A stretch of 20,335 bases of DNA, from IMG/VR virus record IMGVR_UViG_3300030104_002882, positions 1 to 20,335 of that record. The stretch is one strand, 5' to 3'. The position numbers and the translations under genes are program-made. The stretch is from a virus. The notes below the pieces were generated by a model. That model worked only from the letters and a program-made list of their open reading frames with translations, was not told the origin of the DNA and ran no database searches. Of this stretch, positions 1,847 through 13,406 are shown piece by piece (positions within the stretch are counted from its first letter, which is position 1; each line of letters opens with the position of its first letter).

Positions 1847-2166
1847 TACCATTTAAAAAAGGACAGTCAGGAAATCCTAATGGCAGACCTAAAGGAAGTA
1901 GAAATAGAAGCACTATTGTAAAAGAAGTTTTACAGATGCTAAGCAAAGAAGATAACCCACTTACAGGCAAAGAAGAATGGCTAACCAATGAGCAAAGAAT
2001 GACAATAAGCATATTGTTAAAAGCTCTTAAAGGTGATGTTAATGCTTATAAGGCTTTAATGGATTCTGCTTACGGTACTGCAAAAGATACAGTTGATATT
2101 AACAGCAATGAAAAAAGAAGCATAGACTTTAAACATCTAATTAGTGGAATTAAAGCTAAGCAATAA
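1828..2166 (+). CDS. terS: Terminase small subunit (putative)
   Basis: The 112-aa product begins with FKKGQSGNPNGRPKGSRNRS (residues 9-28). This GNPxGRP basic motif marks a family of small phage DNA-binding proteins (DUF5681-like N-terminus) that often sit directly before the large terminase. The remainder is helical and suited to oligomerisation. The expected role is to recognise the phage genome and recruit the large subunit for packaging into the prohead. It overlaps the large terminase by 23 bases, so translation is coupled. The assignment rests on the motif plus position. Confidence 0.78.
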   Translation: MSKEDLIPFKKGQSGNPNGRPKGSRNRSTIVKEVLQMLSKEDNPLTGKEEWLTNEQRMTISILLKALKGDVNAYKALMDSAYGTAKDTVDINSNEKRSIDFKHLISGIKAKQ

Positions 2167-3349
2167 ATATCTAGTATTAGAAAATGATACTAGGTACTTC
2201 ATTGTAACTGGTGGTAGAGGTTCAGGCAAATCATTTGCAATAAACACATTATTAACGCTTCTAACGTACGAACAAGGTCACAAGATACTATTTACTCGTT
2301 ACACATTAAGAGCTGCCAGTATATCAATTATTCCTGAGTTTATAGAAAAGCTAGAACTACAAAAGATAGAGCAAGATTTTCACATTACTAAAGATGAAAT
2401 CATTAACAAGCAAACAGGAAGCAAGATTTTATTTAGAGGTATTAAAACAAGTTCAGGTGACCAAACAGCAAACCTTAAATCATTACAAGGTGTTACCACT
2501 TGGGTGTTAGATGAAGCAGAAGAACTAACTGATGAAACTATATTTGATAAGATAGATTTAAGCATCAGACAAAAGGATAAAGACAATAGAGTTATATTAA
2601 TACTTAACCCTACAACAAAAGAAAACTTTATCTATCAAAGATTCTTTGAAGCTAGAGGTGTTGAAGCTGGTAGCAACACAATCAAAGCTGATACTACTTA
2701 CATACACACAACTTACTTAGACAATATAGAAAACCTTTCAGAAAGCTATATTAAACAAATAGAGCAAATGAAAGAGAGAAGACCAAACAGATACAAGCAT
2801 ACAATACTTGGTAGTTGGTTAGATAAAGCTGAAGGTGTTATATATAGCAATTGGAGTATTGGAGAATTTAAGCAAGTTGGTAAAATAGTATTTGGGCAAG
2901 ATTATGGTTTCAGTAACGACCCTAGCACCTTAATTAAAACAAGCATAGACAAAGACAATAAGATTATTTATGTACAACAATGCTTTTACCAAACAAAGCT
3001 TACTACAAGTGAAATAGCAGTATTAAATAAAAAGTATGCTGGTGATAATTTAATAGTAGGTGATAGTGCAGAACCAAGATTAATAAATGAGCTAAGCAGA
3101 CATAACAAAGTTGTACCAGCAATCAAAGGTCAAGGCTCAATAACTTATGGCATTAGCTTACTACAAGATTATGATTTAGTAATTAGTGAAGATTCTGTTG
3201 AGTTAGTTAAAGAACTTAATAACTATTGTTGGTTAGAAAAAAAGAGCCAAACACCTTGTGATAATTGGAATCATTGTCTTGATGCATTAAGGTATGCAGT
3301 AAGCTATCAATTACAAAACCCTAATTCAGGCGAATATTTTTTATATTAA
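2144..3349 (+). CDS. terL: Terminase large subunit
   Basis: This 401-aa protein is the ATP-driven packaging motor and nuclease. Visible motifs are Walker A GGRGSGKS (residues 23-30), Walker B WVLDEAEE (about 120-127) and a C-terminal RNase H-like nuclease with candidate metal ligands D253 (GQDYGFSNDPS), D307 (VGDSAEP) and D380 (CLDALRYA). The motif set resembles the Terminase_3 group typified by SPP1 gp2, which suggests headful packaging (inference). The chosen start is GTG at 2144, because the frame has no ATG before the Walker A motif that would keep the N-terminal strand. The gene ends this operon; the next 48 bases are A/T-rich and lead to a new promoter. Confidence 0.95.
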   Translation: MELKLSNKYLVLENDTRYFIVTGGRGSGKSFAINTLLTLLTYEQGHKILFTRYTLRAASISIIPEFIEKLELQKIEQDFHITKDEIINKQTGSKILFRGIKTSSGDQTANLKSLQGVTTWVLDEAEELTDETIFDKIDLSIRQKDKDNRVILILNPTTKENFIYQRFFEARGVEAGSNTIKADTTYIHTTYLDNIENLSESYIKQIEQMKERRPNRYKHTILGSWLDKAEGVIYSNWSIGEFKQVGKIVFGQDYGFSNDPSTLIKTSIDKDNKIIYVQQCFYQTKLTTSEIAVLNKKYAGDNLIVGDSAEPRLINELSRHNKVVPAIKGQGSITYGISLLQDYDLVISEDSVELVKELNNYCWLEKKSQTPCDNWNHCLDALRYAVSYQLQNPNSGEYFLY

Positions 3350-3396
3350 TTTACAGAGGTAGAGTAAAAAAAAATAAAAATAATTTAATAAAGCTA

Positions 3397-3426
3397 TTGT
3401 ATTATAAATATATTTATATATATTTG
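3397..3426 (+). promoter_or_regulatory. Promoter P1 with 16-bp palindrome in the spacer
   Basis: TTG (3397-3399), a 19-bp spacer and TATATTTG (3419-3426) match the Bacteroidetes promoter consensus (TTTG, about 19 bp, TAnnTTTG). The spacer contains the perfect palindrome TATAAATATATTTATA (3403-3418), which directly abuts the -7 element. The same 16-mer recurs in the promoters at about 3940 and 13325. The start codon follows 21 bases after the -7 element. A palindrome in this position could be an operator for a dimeric repressor, or just an easily melted spacer. Confidence 0.78.
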
Positions 3427-3447: not shown

Positions 3448-3657
3448 ATGAATTATTATATTAATCAATACGGACAAAAGACTTCAAAAAAATTAGAAAA
3501 AATTATTGCTGAAGCGTGTGATTATGTTGATAATACTAGAGGGAGTTGGGAGTTTAAAAACAATACCAAAAAAATGCAAAAACTAAGAGATAGATTTAAT
3601 ATAGAGGTGGAGAGAATAGGTGGTGTTGATTATAATTTTGGAGATTGCATAGCATAA
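3448..3657 (+). CDS. Hypothetical small cassette protein, 69 aa
   Basis: The protein is a charged helical chain that I do not recognise. It begins MNYYINQYGQKTSKKLEK and carries RGSWEFKNNTKKMQKLRDRF in the middle, with a glycine-rich end. It has no membrane segment. It has its own promoter directly upstream, and its stop overlaps the next start (TAATG), so it forms a two-gene unit closed by a terminator. This isolated promoter-gene-terminator layout between the packaging and tail modules is that of a moron-type accessory gene. Confidence 0.78.
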   Translation: MNYYINQYGQKTSKKLEKIIAEACDYVDNTRGSWEFKNNTKKMQKLRDRFNIEVERIGGVDYNFGDCIA

Positions 3658-3749
3658 TGAGTTGGAGAGATAAAATAATACAGGTATATAAAAAATGTAA
3701 AAAGAACTGCAAATGTTTCTTTTGCAAACTAGAAGATGAGCTACTGTAA
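3657..3749 (+). CDS. Cysteine-rich microprotein, 30 aa
   Basis: The peptide is strongly basic with four cysteines spaced C-x3-C-x-C-x2-C (residues 14-23), then an acidic Leu-rich end. The spacing would allow a small zinc-binding knuckle. It starts in the TAATG overlap with the preceding gene, and its stop codon lies inside the terminator hairpin loop, which supports a real coding unit ending just where transcription should end. Function is unknown. Confidence 0.5.
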   Translation: MSWRDKIIQVYKKCKKNCKCFFCKLEDELL

Positions 3750-3766
3750 AAAGTAGCTTTTTTTTT
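3739..3766 (+). terminator. Intrinsic terminator of the first cassette
   Basis: AGCTAC (3739-3744) pairs with GTAGCT (3753-3758) across the 8-base loop TGTAAAAA and is followed by a run of nine T (3758-3766). The stop codon of the cysteine-rich microprotein lies in the loop. Confidence 0.85.
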
Positions 3767-3827
3767 GAAATAAAAATTTTTTGCTTTTTTACTAAAATGT
3801 AAACTAAACAGCTTCCAACAGATAGAG

Positions 3828-3871
3828 CAATGCTCAAGCAAAGCTATAGCAATGCTTAACCAATGCTCAAG
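3828..3871. repeat. Four tandem 11-bp repeats (iteron-like)
   Basis: Consecutive 11-base units read CAATGCTCAAG (3828), CAAAGCTATAG (3839), CAATGCTTAAC (3850) and CAATGCTCAAG (3861). Units 1 and 4 are identical, unit 3 differs at two bases and unit 2 at three. The period is close to one helical turn, so bound proteins would lie on one face of the DNA. The array could be replication iterons, a packaging-initiation site or a regulator array; nothing in the sequence decides which. Confidence 0.65.
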
Positions 3872-3875
3872 CATT

Positions 3876-3905
3876 AAGATAAGATAAAATAAGATAAGAT
3901 AAGAT
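3876..3905. repeat. Six tandem AAGAT pentamers
   Basis: Six consecutive 5-base units read AAGAT, except the third, which is AAAAT. The array begins four bases after the 11-bp repeats and is followed by an A-rich stretch. It is low in stability and could act as an unwinding element next to the 11-bp array, or simply be a slippage product. Confidence 0.75.
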
Positions 3906-3939
3906 GTAAAAAAAAATATAAAAAAAGTTGTAAAATGTT

Positions 3940-3969
3940 TTGTAGTTTATAAATATATTTATATATTAG
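3940..3969 (+). promoter_or_regulatory. Promoter P2 with the same 16-bp palindrome
   Basis: TTG (3940-3942, within TTTTG), 19 bp and TATATTAG (3962-3969) form a near-consensus Bacteroidetes promoter; the -7 element differs from TAnnTTTG by one base. The palindrome TATAAATATATTTATA occupies 3948-3963, overlapping the first two bases of the -7 element. The leader to the gene at 4052 is about 75-80 bases and includes a 14-codon open frame at 3972-4016 with two in-frame ATGs; its significance is unclear. Confidence 0.65.
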
Positions 3970-4020
3970 CAATGTATTTAAAAACAAACAAAATGAAAAC
4001 TTTAAATATTACATAATATA

Positions 4021-4043
4021 AACTAAACACTAAACAACTAAAC
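4021..4043. repeat. Direct repeat, upstream copy, flanking the gene at 4052
   Basis: The sequence AACTAAACACTAA-A-CAACTAAA (with a final C) occurs here, just before the start codon at 4052. It recurs with a one-base deletion at 4277-4298, so the gene body is bracketed by near-identical direct repeats. Confidence 0.7.
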
Positions 4044-4051
4044 TTACAACT

Positions 4052-4282
4052 ATGGATAACTTTATGAAAAGAAAAATAAGAGAATACGAAAGTAATACTC
4101 GACAAAAAGCAATTGAAATAATAACTAAAGATTATTACCAAATTTTACAAGACGCTATTGATTCTTACGACCTCAGAGATTTAGAAGACGCAAGGTGGAA
4201 AAGGCTAGGCGGTCAAACGTTAGAAGATTTTATTAAGCAACAGTATGAGCTTAGAAAAATTAAATTAGGATTAAATAACTAA
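4052..4282 (+). CDS. Hypothetical small cassette protein, 76 aa
   Basis: The protein is helical and highly charged; its residues include RKIREYESNTRQKAIEII and a central SYDLRDLEDARWKRLGG. No membrane segment or recognised domain is visible. It uses some codons (CGA for Arg, GAC, ACG) that are uncommon in the structural genes, a slight sign of separate origin. It has its own promoter upstream and a hairpin terminator just after the stop, and the coding region lies between two direct repeats. The arrangement is that of a self-contained accessory cassette. Function is unknown. Confidence 0.8.
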   Translation: MDNFMKRKIREYESNTRQKAIEIITKDYYQILQDAIDSYDLRDLEDARWKRLGGQTLEDFIKQQYELRKIKLGLNN

Positions 4283-4298
4283 ACACTAACAACTAAAT
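4277..4298. repeat. Direct repeat, downstream copy, flanking the gene at 4052
   Basis: AACTAAACACTAACAACTAAA matches the copy at 4021 apart from one missing A. It overlaps the TAA stop codon of the gene and ends five bases before the terminator stem. Confidence 0.7.
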
Positions 4299-4302
4299 TA
4301 AG

Positions 4303-4330
4303 AGCTACTTTAACAGGTAGCTTTTTTTTT
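4303..4330 (+). terminator. Intrinsic terminator of the second cassette
   Basis: AGCTAC (4303-4308) pairs with GTAGCT (4317-4322) across an 8-base loop, followed by nine T. The stem is identical to that of the terminator at 3739, with a different loop (TTTAACAG). Confidence 0.88.
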
Positions 4331-4343
4331 GTTTAAAGTTTTT

Positions 4344-4382
4344 TAAATTTGTATATAACACTTAACTAAAAAAATTACATTA
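4344..4382 (+). promoter_or_regulatory. Leader of the tail module with bipartite motif shared with the head module
   Basis: Two signals overlap here. TAAATTTG (4344-4351) fits the host -7 consensus but has no proper -33 partner at 19 bp. ATTT (4347-4350), TATAACACTT (4354-4363) and TTACATTA (4375-4382) recur with the same internal spacing at 13407-13442, before the scaffold and capsid genes. These two sites head the two morphogenesis blocks, so the motif is a candidate late promoter or activator site. The start codon lies six bases after the last block. Confidence 0.55.
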
Positions 4383-4387
4383 TATAT

Positions 4388-5017
4388 ATGAAGATTAAAT
4401 TAAATGTGCCTGAGAATTTAAGTGAGATAACACTAGCACAGTATCAAAGGTGGGTTAAGATAATTGATAAAGAAGAAGAAGTAGGTACTTTCTACCAGCA
4501 AAAGATGATTGAAATATTTTGCAATGCAGAATTACAACACATTATGCAAATGAGAGTAAAAGACATAGAGGAAATAACTACTCACCTAAATACTTTATTT
4601 AATGAAAAGCCTGAGTTTAAGCCTTTGTTTAGATTAGAAGATGAAGAGTTTGGTTTTATACCTAAGCTTGATGAAATGACTTTTGGAGAGTATATTGACT
4701 TAGACAACTATTTAACAGACTGGCAACAAATGGATTCAGCAATGGCTGTATTATTTAGACCTGTAACTTTTAAAAGAAAAGGTAAGTATTTAATTGAAGA
4801 TTATGTAGGTAGTGAAAAGTATGATTTAGCTGAAATGCCTTTAGATGTTGTTTTAGGTTCTTTAGTTTTTTTTTGCGATTTAAAGAACGAATTACTGAAA
4901 CATATACTGAGCTATTTGAAAACTCAGGACATAGTGGACATTCCACAAAACTTGAAGGCTTTGCTAGAAAGTGGGGTTGGTATCAATCCATATATGGACT
5001 TACAAAAGGAGAGCTAG
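4388..5017 (+). CDS. Tail assembly chaperone, short form (gpG-like)
   Basis: The 209-aa product is helical and acidic, starting MKIKLNVPENLSEITLAQYQ. It resembles in character and position the chaperones that coat the tape measure protein during tail assembly in siphoviruses such as lambda (gpG/gpGT). A run of nine T lies at codons 160-163 (VFFC), and the -1 frame opens into a conserved-looking 85-codon extension. After the slip site the zero frame continues for 47 residues to TAA. Ribosomes that do not slip make this form. It starts the tail operon after the terminator at 4303. The chaperone call rests on the frameshift layout and genome position, since sequence similarity in this class is low. 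Confidence 0.75.
   Translation: MKIKLNVPENLSEITLAQYQRWVKIIDKEEEVGTFYQQKMIEIFCNAELQHIMQMRVKDIEEITTHLNTLFNEKPEFKPLFRLEDEEFGFIPKLDEMTFGEYIDLDNYLTDWQQMDSAMAVLFRPVTFKRKGKYLIEDYVGSEKYDLAEMPLDVVLGSLVFFCDLKNELLKHILSYLKTQDIVDIPQNLKALLESGVGINPYMDLQKES
4866..4874 (+). other. Programmed -1 ribosomal frameshift site (T9)
   Basis: Nine T in a row give the canonical X XXY YYZ slippery heptamer T TTT TTT at 4867-4873 in the zero frame (GTT TTT TTT TGC). After slipping back one base, ribosomes read TTG at 4873 and continue to the stop at 5130. The downstream region could form a stimulatory structure, but none is obvious by eye. Confidence 0.75.
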
Positions 5018-5130
5018 GAAAGTTTGAAGAAGTAACAAAGTCAAAGCTACATACTTGCTTAACTATGTTAGCATTTGAAAAAGATAAAATGGAAGTTGAA
5101 CAGCAATTAATGAAGAATGCAAAGAGATGA
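4873..5130 (+). CDS. Tail assembly chaperone frameshift extension (T domain)
   Basis: This frame has no usable start of its own near its N-terminus (only TTG inside the T tract) and begins exactly at the slip site. Read as an extension of the 4388 gene it gives a fusion of 247 aa (162 + 85). It contains FARKWGWYQSIYGLTKGELG, a Trp/Gly-rich segment I associate with the C-terminal part of chaperone pairs in flavobacterial phages, then a helical end with LAFEKDKMEVEQQL. In lambda the equivalent T domain recruits the tail tube protein to the tape measure. It overlaps the next gene by 14 bases. Confidence 0.75.
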   Translation: MRFKERITETYTELFENSGHSGHSTKLEGFARKWGWYQSIYGLTKGELGKFEEVTKSKLHTCLTMLAFEKDKMEVEQQLMKNAKR

Positions 5131-5386
5131 GATAATAGACCAGCTACTAACTAGGAAGCTATTTGGTGAGTCTGAAACATTAGTGCTTACTGATGGTTTA
5201 GAAGAAGCATTTATGGGAGTTACTGCTACAACACCAACAAAAGCAATATATGACTATTGGAAGTGTTTAGACATTATTATCAAATCAGATGAAACAATGA
5301 ACTTTAATGAAGCATTAGATTATTTAGAAAAGCTAAGTAAAGAAGATGTTGGTGAGCATTCACCTATATATATAAAATTAATATGA
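5117..5386 (+). CDS. Hypothetical tail-module protein, 89 aa
   Basis: This small acidic helical protein has no recognised motif; an internal segment reads ATTPTKAIYDYWKCLDIIIK. It starts inside the end of the chaperone extension and overlaps the next start by 4 bases (ATGA), so translation is coupled. Its place between the chaperone pair and the tail-completion genes suggests an assembly role, but function is unknown. Confidence 0.8.
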   Translation: MQRDEIIDQLLTRKLFGESETLVLTDGLEEAFMGVTATTPTKAIYDYWKCLDIIIKSDETMNFNEALDYLEKLSKEDVGEHSPIYIKLI

Positions 5387-5838: not shown

Positions 5839-6320
5839 TGGGAAAGTTTGAACAGGCATTAGAAAAATACGCTAAGTATGTAATACAACAAGCTAGAAGT
5901 AACTTAACTAAGAGCAAACAAAACTCTAGCAAAGAATTATATAATAGTTTAAGCTATAAGGTACAGAAAAAAAGTGTGTTGTTTGATATGCTTGATTATG
6001 GAGCTTTTCAAGATGAAGGTGTTAGAGGTAAAAAATCAACATATTCTGAAAGTTCATCTTCACCATACAAGTATAAAAGCAAGATGCCACCTAGCTCAGT
6101 ATTTGATAAGTGGAGCATAAGAAAAGGAATAGCACCAAGAGATAAGCAAGGTAGATTTATAAGCAGAAAGAGTTTAAACTACTTACTTGCTAGAAGCATA
6201 TACAACAAAGGAATTAGGGCAACAATGTTTTTTACAAAACCTTTTGAAGCTGGTTTAGATAAGTATAGTGATGATATAGTATTTGGTTTTATAGACGATA
6301 ATTTAAAATTAGAAGAATGA
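5838..6320 (+). CDS. HK97 gp10-like neck/tail-completion protein
   Basis: The start is taken as ATG 5838, which overlaps the previous stop as TAATG, rather than the in-frame TTG at 5832. The product is 160 aa. Useful motifs are DYGAFQDEGVRGKKSTYS (about residues 52-69), KMPPSSVFDKWSIRKGI, RDKQGRFISRKS and FFTKPFEAGLDKY. The YGxFxDEGvrG and kGi..tmFFtkPf patterns are typical of gp10-like head-tail joining proteins, which sit at the neck between connector and tail. It ends in an ATGA overlap with the next gene. Confidence 0.72.
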   Translation: MGKFEQALEKYAKYVIQQARSNLTKSKQNSSKELYNSLSYKVQKKSVLFDMLDYGAFQDEGVRGKKSTYSESSSSPYKYKSKMPPSSVFDKWSIRKGIAPRDKQGRFISRKSLNYLLARSIYNKGIRATMFFTKPFEAGLDKYSDDIVFGFIDDNLKLEE

Positions 6321-7390
6321 GTACATTAACATTAACAAGAAGTCCAAGATATATACGAACATCAAGTTTAGCAAATGCTACATACTTTAAACTAGAGCTT
6401 TATATATTTACAGGCTTAACAAGCGACAAACCAACAGATGCTACATATATACTTGAAAAAGATGTTATCAATAGTGAAACACAAGTAACTTTTGAGATTA
6501 ACCAACTAATAAGAGATTACTATGAGCATATTGCACCAACAACAGGCAACAGCACAGGCTATGTATTATGGGCAATAGCAGATGTAACAGGATTCACAAG
6601 CAGTACTGTAGGAGCAACAGTAAGCACTACATTTTTAGCTTTTGATGGTTATAATTATTTTCAAGAAGCAGCTTCAAATGGTGGTTCAATAAATGCTACT
6701 TACACATTACCAACATTATTAACATCTAGTAAAATACAGGTTCTAGAAAGTGAAGCAGCACAAATACCTGTTAATGCTGAGATTGCTGAAACAGTAAACT
6801 TTAAATTAGCTGGTGTAACTGTAAGCACACACTCAATAACTGATAATGGCAACACCAACCAAAAGATTCAATACATAACAACTACTGCTGCAAATGTAGA
6901 TGCTGTTGATGTTGTTTATAATAGTGGTGGTAGTACTCAATCATTTACTATTGAAGAAGTATCAGAGTGTAAACATACAGTTAGTAAAATTGTTTTTATT
7001 AATAAATATGGAGCTTTGCAGAACTTATACTTTTTTAAGAAGTCAGTAGAAAACTTACAAATAAATAAAGATAGCTTTAACAGAAATATACTAGATGAAA
7101 CAATTCCTTATATTGCTGGATTTCAATTTAAAGAACATCAAGACAAAAAGTTTAATATAATTGCTAATGAAGCTATTACTTTAAATTCAGGTTTTGTTAG
7201 TGAAAGTATGAATGATAGCTTTAAAGAATTACTATTAAGTCAATATGTTTGGATGGTTAGAGATGGTGATACTTTGCCTATGAATGTAGAAGAATCAAGC
7301 TTTACTTACAAAACAGGATTGAATGATAAGTTAATTAACTACACTATTAACTTAAAATATGCTTTTGATACTATTAACAATGTACATTAA
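6317..7390 (+). CDS. Structural tail protein, probable distal tail/baseplate component
   Basis: The 357-aa protein is rich in Thr, Ser, Asn and beta strands. The N-terminal half has a receptor or fibre-like composition; a segment near the middle reads VSECKHTVSKIVFINKYGAL. The second half is rich in short polar beta-like segments. It overlaps both neighbours and lies before the largest tail-module protein and the tape measure, so a virion role is likely. A distal-tail or baseplate assignment is inference from order; no specific family is certain. Confidence 0.62.
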   Translation: MSTLTLTRSPRYIRTSSLANATYFKLELYIFTGLTSDKPTDATYILEKDVINSETQVTFEINQLIRDYYEHIAPTTGNSTGYVLWAIADVTGFTSSTVGATVSTTFLAFDGYNYFQEAASNGGSINATYTLPTLLTSSKIQVLESEAAQIPVNAEIAETVNFKLAGVTVSTHSITDNGNTNQKIQYITTTAANVDAVDVVYNSGGSTQSFTIEEVSECKHTVSKIVFINKYGALQNLYFFKKSVENLQINKDSFNRNILDETIPYIAGFQFKEHQDKKFNIIANEAITLNSGFVSESMNDSFKELLLSQYVWMVRDGDTLPMNVEESSFTYKTGLNDKLINYTINLKYAFDTINNVH

Positions 7391-13120: not shown

Positions 13121-13300
13121 TTATTTAATTAATTTTAAATTTAATTCTCTTGCTACATAATTAATATGTTTTTGCGTTGTCATTGACCACCAGCCTAATT
13201 GATGTAGTTCGTTTCCTTTAATTGTAGCAACGTGTGTTACATAGCTTATTACTTTATTGCCTTCAATTTTTAAATTTTGTTTGTATTTTGATAAATTCAT
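13121..13300 (-). CDS. Small leftward protein, DUF8033-like, 59 aa
   Basis: The frame could be opened as far as an ATG at 13354, but that lies in the promoter and its translation is a low-complexity Tyr/Ile/Lys stretch; the ATG at 13300 is the credible start. The product reads MNLSKYKQNLKIEGNKVISY, then THVATIKGNELHQLGWWSMT, TTQKHINYVARELN. The pattern VISYxTHVA...LGxxSxTTxKHINYVA resembles, from memory, a small phage family annotated DUF8033, whose function is unknown. It is the first gene of a leftward two-gene cassette. Confidence 0.8.
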   Translation of the reverse strand: MNLSKYKQNLKIEGNKVISYVTHVATIKGNELHQLGWWSMTTQKHINYVARELNLKLIK

Positions 13301-13324
13301 AGCGTTTTTGTTTGTTTGTTTATA

Positions 13325-13355
13325 CAAATATATATAAATATATTTATACTGCAAA
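13325..13355 (-). promoter_or_regulatory. Leftward promoter P3 with the same 16-bp palindrome
   Basis: On the minus strand TTTG (13355-13352), exactly 19 bp, then TATATTTG (13332-13325) form a perfect Bacteroidetes promoter. The palindrome TATAAATATATTTATA occupies 13333-13348 and directly abuts the -7 element, as in P1. The leader to ATG 13300 is about 20-25 bases. This is the best promoter match in the window. Confidence 0.82.
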
Positions 13356-13406
13356 TGTTTTTATACTTTTTTTTTAATTTTTTTTTGTTTTTACCTATAA
13401 ATAAGC

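Follow-up and report, generated by a model that had tools for sequence, protein, structure and literature searches.

An 11-bp repeat array beside the terminase gene of marine phages: a likely iteron-type origin element with a counterpart in a putative initiator gene

Iteron plasmids such as R6K, P1 and F carry helically phased direct repeats, with units of about 20 bp, beside an AT-rich tract. The origin of phage lambda comprises four 18-bp iterons and 38 bp of AT-rich sequence within gene O, as set out in the part of the source available to us (PMC3349717). In SPP1, the accessible sections of two sources (PMC6316719, PMC3485210) place direct repeats and an AT-rich melting tract inside the initiator gene (oriL), with a second set, oriR, in the late region, where it occupies a non-coding segment that carries moron genes as well and has transcription signals on either side. 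According to the same sections, gp38 binds both origins and, when bound to oriR, has been proposed to stall replication forks and trigger the concatemer switch (PMC6316719, PMC3485210).

The window studied here is the whole 20,335-base stretch of a virus record, encoding terminase, tail and head proteins. From comparison of its sequence with those of relatives, we consider it likely that a repeat array in the window represents a replication-origin element of the iteron type, two copies of which occur in this phage group. The replication start site would have its first copy (copy B) inside a putative initiator gene, and the array in the window (copy A) is most likely the other, non-coding one. 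No description of such arrays in these phages appeared among the papers listed by searches of an open-access library.

Copy A begins with four head-to-tail 11-bp units (3828-3871, plus strand), identified by repeat analysis and proposed to be initiator-binding iterons, which read CAATGCTCAAG, CAAAGCTATAG, CAATGCTTAAC and again CAATGCTCAAG. Each unit is composed of an 8-bp dyad core, GCTNNAGC (GCTTAACC in the third unit), and a 3-bp spacer; a degenerate fifth unit, matching at four of five core positions, precedes them (3817-3827, plus strand). A CATT junction (3872-3875, plus strand) leads to six AAGAT-type pentamers, the proposed DNA unwinding element (3876-3905, plus strand), which read AAGAT AAGAT AAAAT AAGAT AAGAT AAGAT, with AAAAT as the third, and are followed by GTAAAAAAAAATATAAAAAAAG. 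By stability calculation, an A-rich tract (3906-3935, plus strand) extends the unstable stretch, and 50-bp stretches within 3875-3935 rank in the least stable 0.26% of the window. Four tandem units, four bases, six pentamers and an A-rich tract are exactly what a preliminary description of this DNA had reported. The self-match peaks at lag 11 (25, over 33 positions) and lag 5 (23, over 25 positions) are reached nowhere else in the window, and none of 300 order-1 Markov windows attained the lag-11 value, the lag-5 value or both. The accompanying statement that nothing else has this structure holds within the window, but not at the level of the genome, as close relatives carry a second array 4.3-6.5 kb upstream, beyond the end of the 20.3-kb fragment. 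Iteron-type phage origins are recognised by tandem direct repeats adjoining an AT-rich tract that melts easily, a pattern found in both the window and its relatives.

The usual left neighbour of copy A is the gene for the terminase large subunit (TerL; 2144-3349, plus strand). The distance from its stop codon to the array is 523 nt in the window, owing to an intervening cassette, against a median of 22 nt in 30 relatives. This cassette comprises an ORF of 69 aa (3448-3657, plus strand) with its own leader and a terminator-like hairpin with a T tract (3738-3759, plus strand); a second, on the other side of the array and before the next late gene, comprises an ORF of 76 aa (4052-4282, plus strand) and another such hairpin at its end (4300-4325, plus strand). 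Neither ORF has an assigned function, nor does the late gene of 209 aa that constantly borders the array/cassette slot on its right (4388-5017, plus strand; phrog_32199). A leader common to the small cassette ORFs occurs at three places (3364-3421 and 3908-4027, plus strand; 13275-13385, minus strand); it contains the palindrome-like TATAAATATATTTATATAT, is also found 3' of the array in many relatives, and is probably a promoter. Both small ORFs are missing from L006 and L138, in which TerL is 100% identical and the array stands alone between TerL and the 209-aa gene; the small ORFs therefore represent cassettes, and what stays constant is the array.

Movement of cassette genes from one slot to another is suggested by a 77-aa ORF on the minus strand of the window (13121-13354), to which an ORF occupying the cassette slot after TerL in L201 (15124-15312) is related at 86% identity. 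In L161, a 306-aa ORF (6236-7156) separates TerL from the array; the post-TerL sequence of L191 starts in the same way as that of L161 and stops before the position of the array.

The placing of copy A between the hairpin at 3738-3759 and the leader of the next ORF would suit an operator or terminator, controlling transcription of a cassette ORF or the late genes through a repressor or RNA structure. This explanation appears very unlikely, because the predicted RNA folding at the array is unremarkable (z -1.08), no Rfam family matches it, the array is retained in relatives free of any cassette (L006/L138, L162 and L149), and an operator would leave the copy within the initiator gene unexplained. 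A scan for sigma-70 promoters around the array found 10, against 7.3 expected.

A search of viral contigs for TerL gave 66 loci; in several of these, alignment of the window region, and also of whole contigs, revealed a further array on the upstream side of TerL. In relatives with 98-100% identical TerL, the array occurs both after TerL and inside an ORF of 136-144 aa, the stop codon of which overlaps the start of a DnaB-like helicase ORF. In L072, for instance, it lies within a 143-aa ORF (4012-4443) overlapping at its end a 283-aa ORF (4440-5291) that resembles the primase/helicase family phrog_18375 (E 9e-27), with genes for SSB and a RusA-like resolvase nearby. The preliminary description had recommended a search for a phage replication initiator, and this small ORF, directly upstream of the helicase gene and carrying the second array, is a plausible candidate in the relatives. 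Copy B would accordingly occupy the position typical of an iteron-type, lambda-like phage origin, within or beside the initiator gene.

The putative initiator has a conserved N-terminal part of approximately 95 residues, then a variable linker encoded by the array, then a short tail. Its PHROGs family, phrog_29280, has no assigned function, and Pfam gave no match for the protein of the window's clade (L072). Scores to DUF1376 (PF07120) of 19.5, 13.8 and 13.0 bits were obtained for three of nine proteins, all under the gathering cut-off of 30.1, with none for the L072 protein (4012-4440). The N-domain of an AlphaFold model (pLDDT 67) aligns best to winged helices, namely those of ORC2 (Z 6.1, 74 residues, rmsd 3.7), the DnaD N-domain (Z 4.5) and the plasmid initiator 4pt7 (Z 4.1), all with Z below 8, a level that may reflect only a common arrangement. 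Foldseek returned no match below E 0.001, and an hmmsearch of solved structures nothing relevant. Searching bacterial genome contigs for the protein yielded one locus only. From its gene place, the weak likeness to DUF1376 and the middling fold match, we infer that this small protein upstream of the helicase is the initiator. In L092 (4012-4443) and L093 (1469-1906), the same N-terminal part and array are joined to two unrelated tails (..YLSTKGLNEYLSTKK or ..YANDNVLKVSDDVKKLLSK), as if the breakpoints of exchange in initiator genes fell at the array.

As 11 is not a multiple of three, the repeats pass through all reading frames of the initiator gene. Across 33 clusters derived from 85 distinct complete initiator genes, the mean self-match at lag 11 was 14.88, compared with 12.24 in synonymous-codon shuffles (sd of the mean 0.21), and at lag 5 it was 17.79, compared with 14.55. 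Lag 12, a codon multiple, showed a small gain (12.76 against 12.22), and in 32 of the 33 clusters the pentamer tract lies on the downstream side of the lag-11 peak. That this periodicity exceeds what synonymous codons provide implies that the array is kept at the DNA level.

A scanner blind to the letters themselves, which looks on both strands for lag-11 periodicity and then for an A-rich lag-5 tract downstream, was applied to 213 non-redundant loci (2,158,357 bases). It returned 172 matches, comprising 150 in the initiator gene, 21 just after TerL and one elsewhere, and none in shuffled sequence (one Markov shuffle per locus). The array was thereby detected in 150 of 206 complete initiator genes; at the strict setting the remaining 56 were missed, along with several post-TerL arrays that were found by means of the signature AGCAT[TA][TAC]AGA[TA]AAGA, which spans the junction between unit and pentamers and is common to both copies in relatives. 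In 131 loci of the nearer clade (1,206,339 bases), this motif occurs 118 times in the gene, 35 times after TerL and nowhere else; since the thresholds and the motif were chosen after examples had been seen, and the loci are related, these counts and those of the scanner measure specificity and are not independent trials. The lone outside match, at L320:16363, is itself another array, about 3.9 kb beyond TerL; its TGCGNNCGCA units and AATGCCA junction also occur in the initiator gene of the same locus.

Within the nearer clade, the array follows TerL on the same strand in 35 of 39 assessable loci, defined as those that encode the initiator and, downstream of it, TerL followed by 150 bases or more. 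It is absent after TerL from L166, which has 5,351 bases there and keeps the in-gene copy, from L199 and L191, with only 1,149 and 950 bases after TerL, and from L154, in which TerL is broken or partial. For the 30 loci in which both copies are found by motif, the junction of copy A lies 20-973 nt past the TerL stop (median 22) and the two copies are 4,300-6,531 nt apart (median 5,490). In none of these 30 does copy A fall within a plus-strand ATG ORF of at least 60 aa, and it overlaps minus-strand ORFs of 63-95 aa in four.

Among the 66 TerL loci, counting those with at least 150 bases after TerL, the array is present after TerL in all 18 with TerL identity of at least 92%, in none of 15 at 77-82%, in none of 23 at 53-59% and in neither of two others. 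In the group of 15, the initiator is of the L129 type, as seen in five of eight with enough upstream sequence, and loci with an L119-type initiator at the same TerL identity of 77-82% do have the array after TerL. Hence copy A follows the type of initiator and not the similarity of the terminase. No initiator was found in the 53-59% group, in any of 11 loci with at least 4.9 kb upstream. The preliminary description had counted relatives lacking the array with no other change as evidence against its reading; this applies only in part, to L166, with its in-gene copy intact, and to the clade with another type of initiator (L129), which lacks it too. Copy A is therefore not essential in all of these phages.

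The type of unit changes jointly in the two copies in L320 and in L127/L205, the latter having TTCGCTA units in each. In L207/L130, by inspection, the units agree poorly between the copies and look partly inverted (post-TerL array at about L130:14045), and G012 has no junction motif at all. For comparison of layouts, 23 loci were hand-picked from those with second self-BLAST matches, after the matches in L104, L105, L143, L144, L194 and L124 (of 41 loci) had been dropped as non-arrays on inspection.

That copy A is neutral debris, either a passively inherited duplicate of initiator-gene sequence or the landing site of mobile cassettes, would account for its absence from some relatives and for the insertion of cassettes on both its flanks. 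It seems highly improbable, given that copy A is retained in 35 of 39 loci while the non-coding sequence around it diverges, and that changes in its units are coupled to those of the in-gene copy. The iteron-origin reading proposed in the preliminary description is strongly supported by comparison, as the same architecture is found in a putative initiator gene beside a helicase gene, is conserved at the DNA level and has a fixed place after TerL.

A packaging site had also been named as something that could be expected at this position, and the fixed place right past the TerL stop would be in keeping with a pac or cos recognition site, or with an element coupling the initiator to packaging. 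However, the same architecture is found within the initiator gene in every group seen, even those without any array near TerL, and the contigs of relatives, which cannot show physical ends, terminate at differing distances from TerL, so that no fixed end is indicated at the array. This alternative found no support, and we regard a packaging signal as distinctly unlikely. A GC-skew profile, which had been suggested as a check for an origin, showed no switch at either copy in seven genomes (G001, G002, G004, G006, G007, G009 and G011); the skew is positive along the whole genome, and nearly all genes are on one strand.

If the array is an origin element, the initiator, a small protein with a predicted winged-helix-like N-terminal domain, would bind the 11-bp units, which, at one unit per helical turn, all lie on one face of the DNA. 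The bound complex might then open the adjacent AAGAW tract and load the DnaB-like helicase. Copy B lies within the part of the putative initiator gene that encodes the linker joining the conserved domain to the short C-terminal tail. The least certain step concerns copy A, for which our first choice is a late origin and/or a barrier to forks that depends on the initiator, the role proposed for SPP1 oriR; copy A would then help to supply concatemers to the terminase of the adjacent gene.

Incompatibility iterons located outside plasmid origins limit initiation, and copy A could likewise bind the initiator without starting replication, restraining initiation through titration or through handcuffing with copy B. 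The unit types of the two copies agree within the same genomes, and the part of the source available considers both mechanisms for lambda O and its iterons (PMC3349717). Pure titration needs no melting tract, yet that of copy A is as regular as that of copy B (mean lag-5 self-match 19.1 and 18.8, respectively, in the 30 loci with both). Such a purely regulatory role is therefore unlikely, if not negligibly so, and the two-copy origin reading is preferred.

A comparable layout, with other unit sequences, occurs in cultured phages. In Arctus_1, morran9-1, phi19:1 and Nekkels_1, it lies in the homologous gene upstream of a helicase or primase-helicase gene, and the scanner detects it in three of the four at the strict setting and in all four when relaxed. 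Arctus_1 has 4.5 copies of AATGCAAAAGC followed by 7.8 of AAGAG, phi19:1 has 4.3 of AAACCGAAACA followed by a ATAAAAGAAG tract, and Nekkels_1 has 2.8 of TTCAACAGAAA followed by 8.8 of AAGAA; in morran9-1 the 11-bp array was found by the scanner, but not by TRF. The homologues are hypothetical proteins encoded immediately upstream of a helicase, replication or primase-helicase gene, one with a DUF1376 note; in phi19:1, one HNH gene lies between the homologue and the helicase-type gene. In the complete genomes of these four, no second copy was found by self-BLAST or by the scanner, and P12024S, which has the same terminase region and a VirE-type primase module, has no array at either scanner threshold.

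Should the origin reading be right, it offers a route from sequence alone to the origins of a large group of uncultured marine phages, with 171 of 172 scanner matches at two functionally sensible places. More tentatively, and with rather less confidence than that reading itself, these arrays may represent an undescribed and widespread class of origin, readable from raw sequence, in which the linker codons of the initiator gene accommodate 11-bp dyad units, all facing the same side of the helix, together with an AAGAW pentamer tract, while a second, non-coding copy beside the terminase gene couples origin firing or fork blocking to concatemers and packaging. This would be an SPP1-like programme in unrelated uncultured marine phages, either separately evolved or anciently shared.

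The putative initiator is like the DUF1376 phage proteins in its gene place before a primase-helicase, and its homologue morran9-1 gp44 has been annotated by similarity to PF07120 (19.5 bits); unlike them, it scores under Pfam's cut-off of 30.1 bits, and the protein of the window's clade is unmatched. The arrays differ from those of the iteron plasmids R6K, P1 and F in their 11-bp units and in being partly inside coding sequence. As in lambda ori, so far as the available part of its description extends, repeats are joined to an AT-rich tract within the (putative) initiator gene, but the units are of 11 bp and head-to-tail instead of 18 bp and spaced, the pentamers are regular, and a second, non-coding copy is present elsewhere.

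The closest parallel is SPP1, with which the comparison extends as far as the accessible sections of its description. Its origins are about 13 kb apart, in contrast to the 4.3-6.5 kb between copies here; copy A abuts TerL, with 11-bp tandem units and pentamers; and SPP1 is a Bacillus phage, whereas these are marine phages, apparently of Flavobacteriia. As in SPP1, an array of the same type occurs in the initiator gene and in the late region, and copy A of the window stands among two small ORFs with terminators and leaders, a bracketing absent from cassette-free relatives. By analogy of function, and apart from any claim of membership or of homology to gp38, oriR may be what copy A works like. 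If so, the two-origin layout known from one well-studied phage would appear to recur in another phage group, and the proposed role of oriR in the concatemer switch would become testable by comparison. Retention of both copies in many uncultured marine phages hints at a programme of replication from two origins, as in SPP1.
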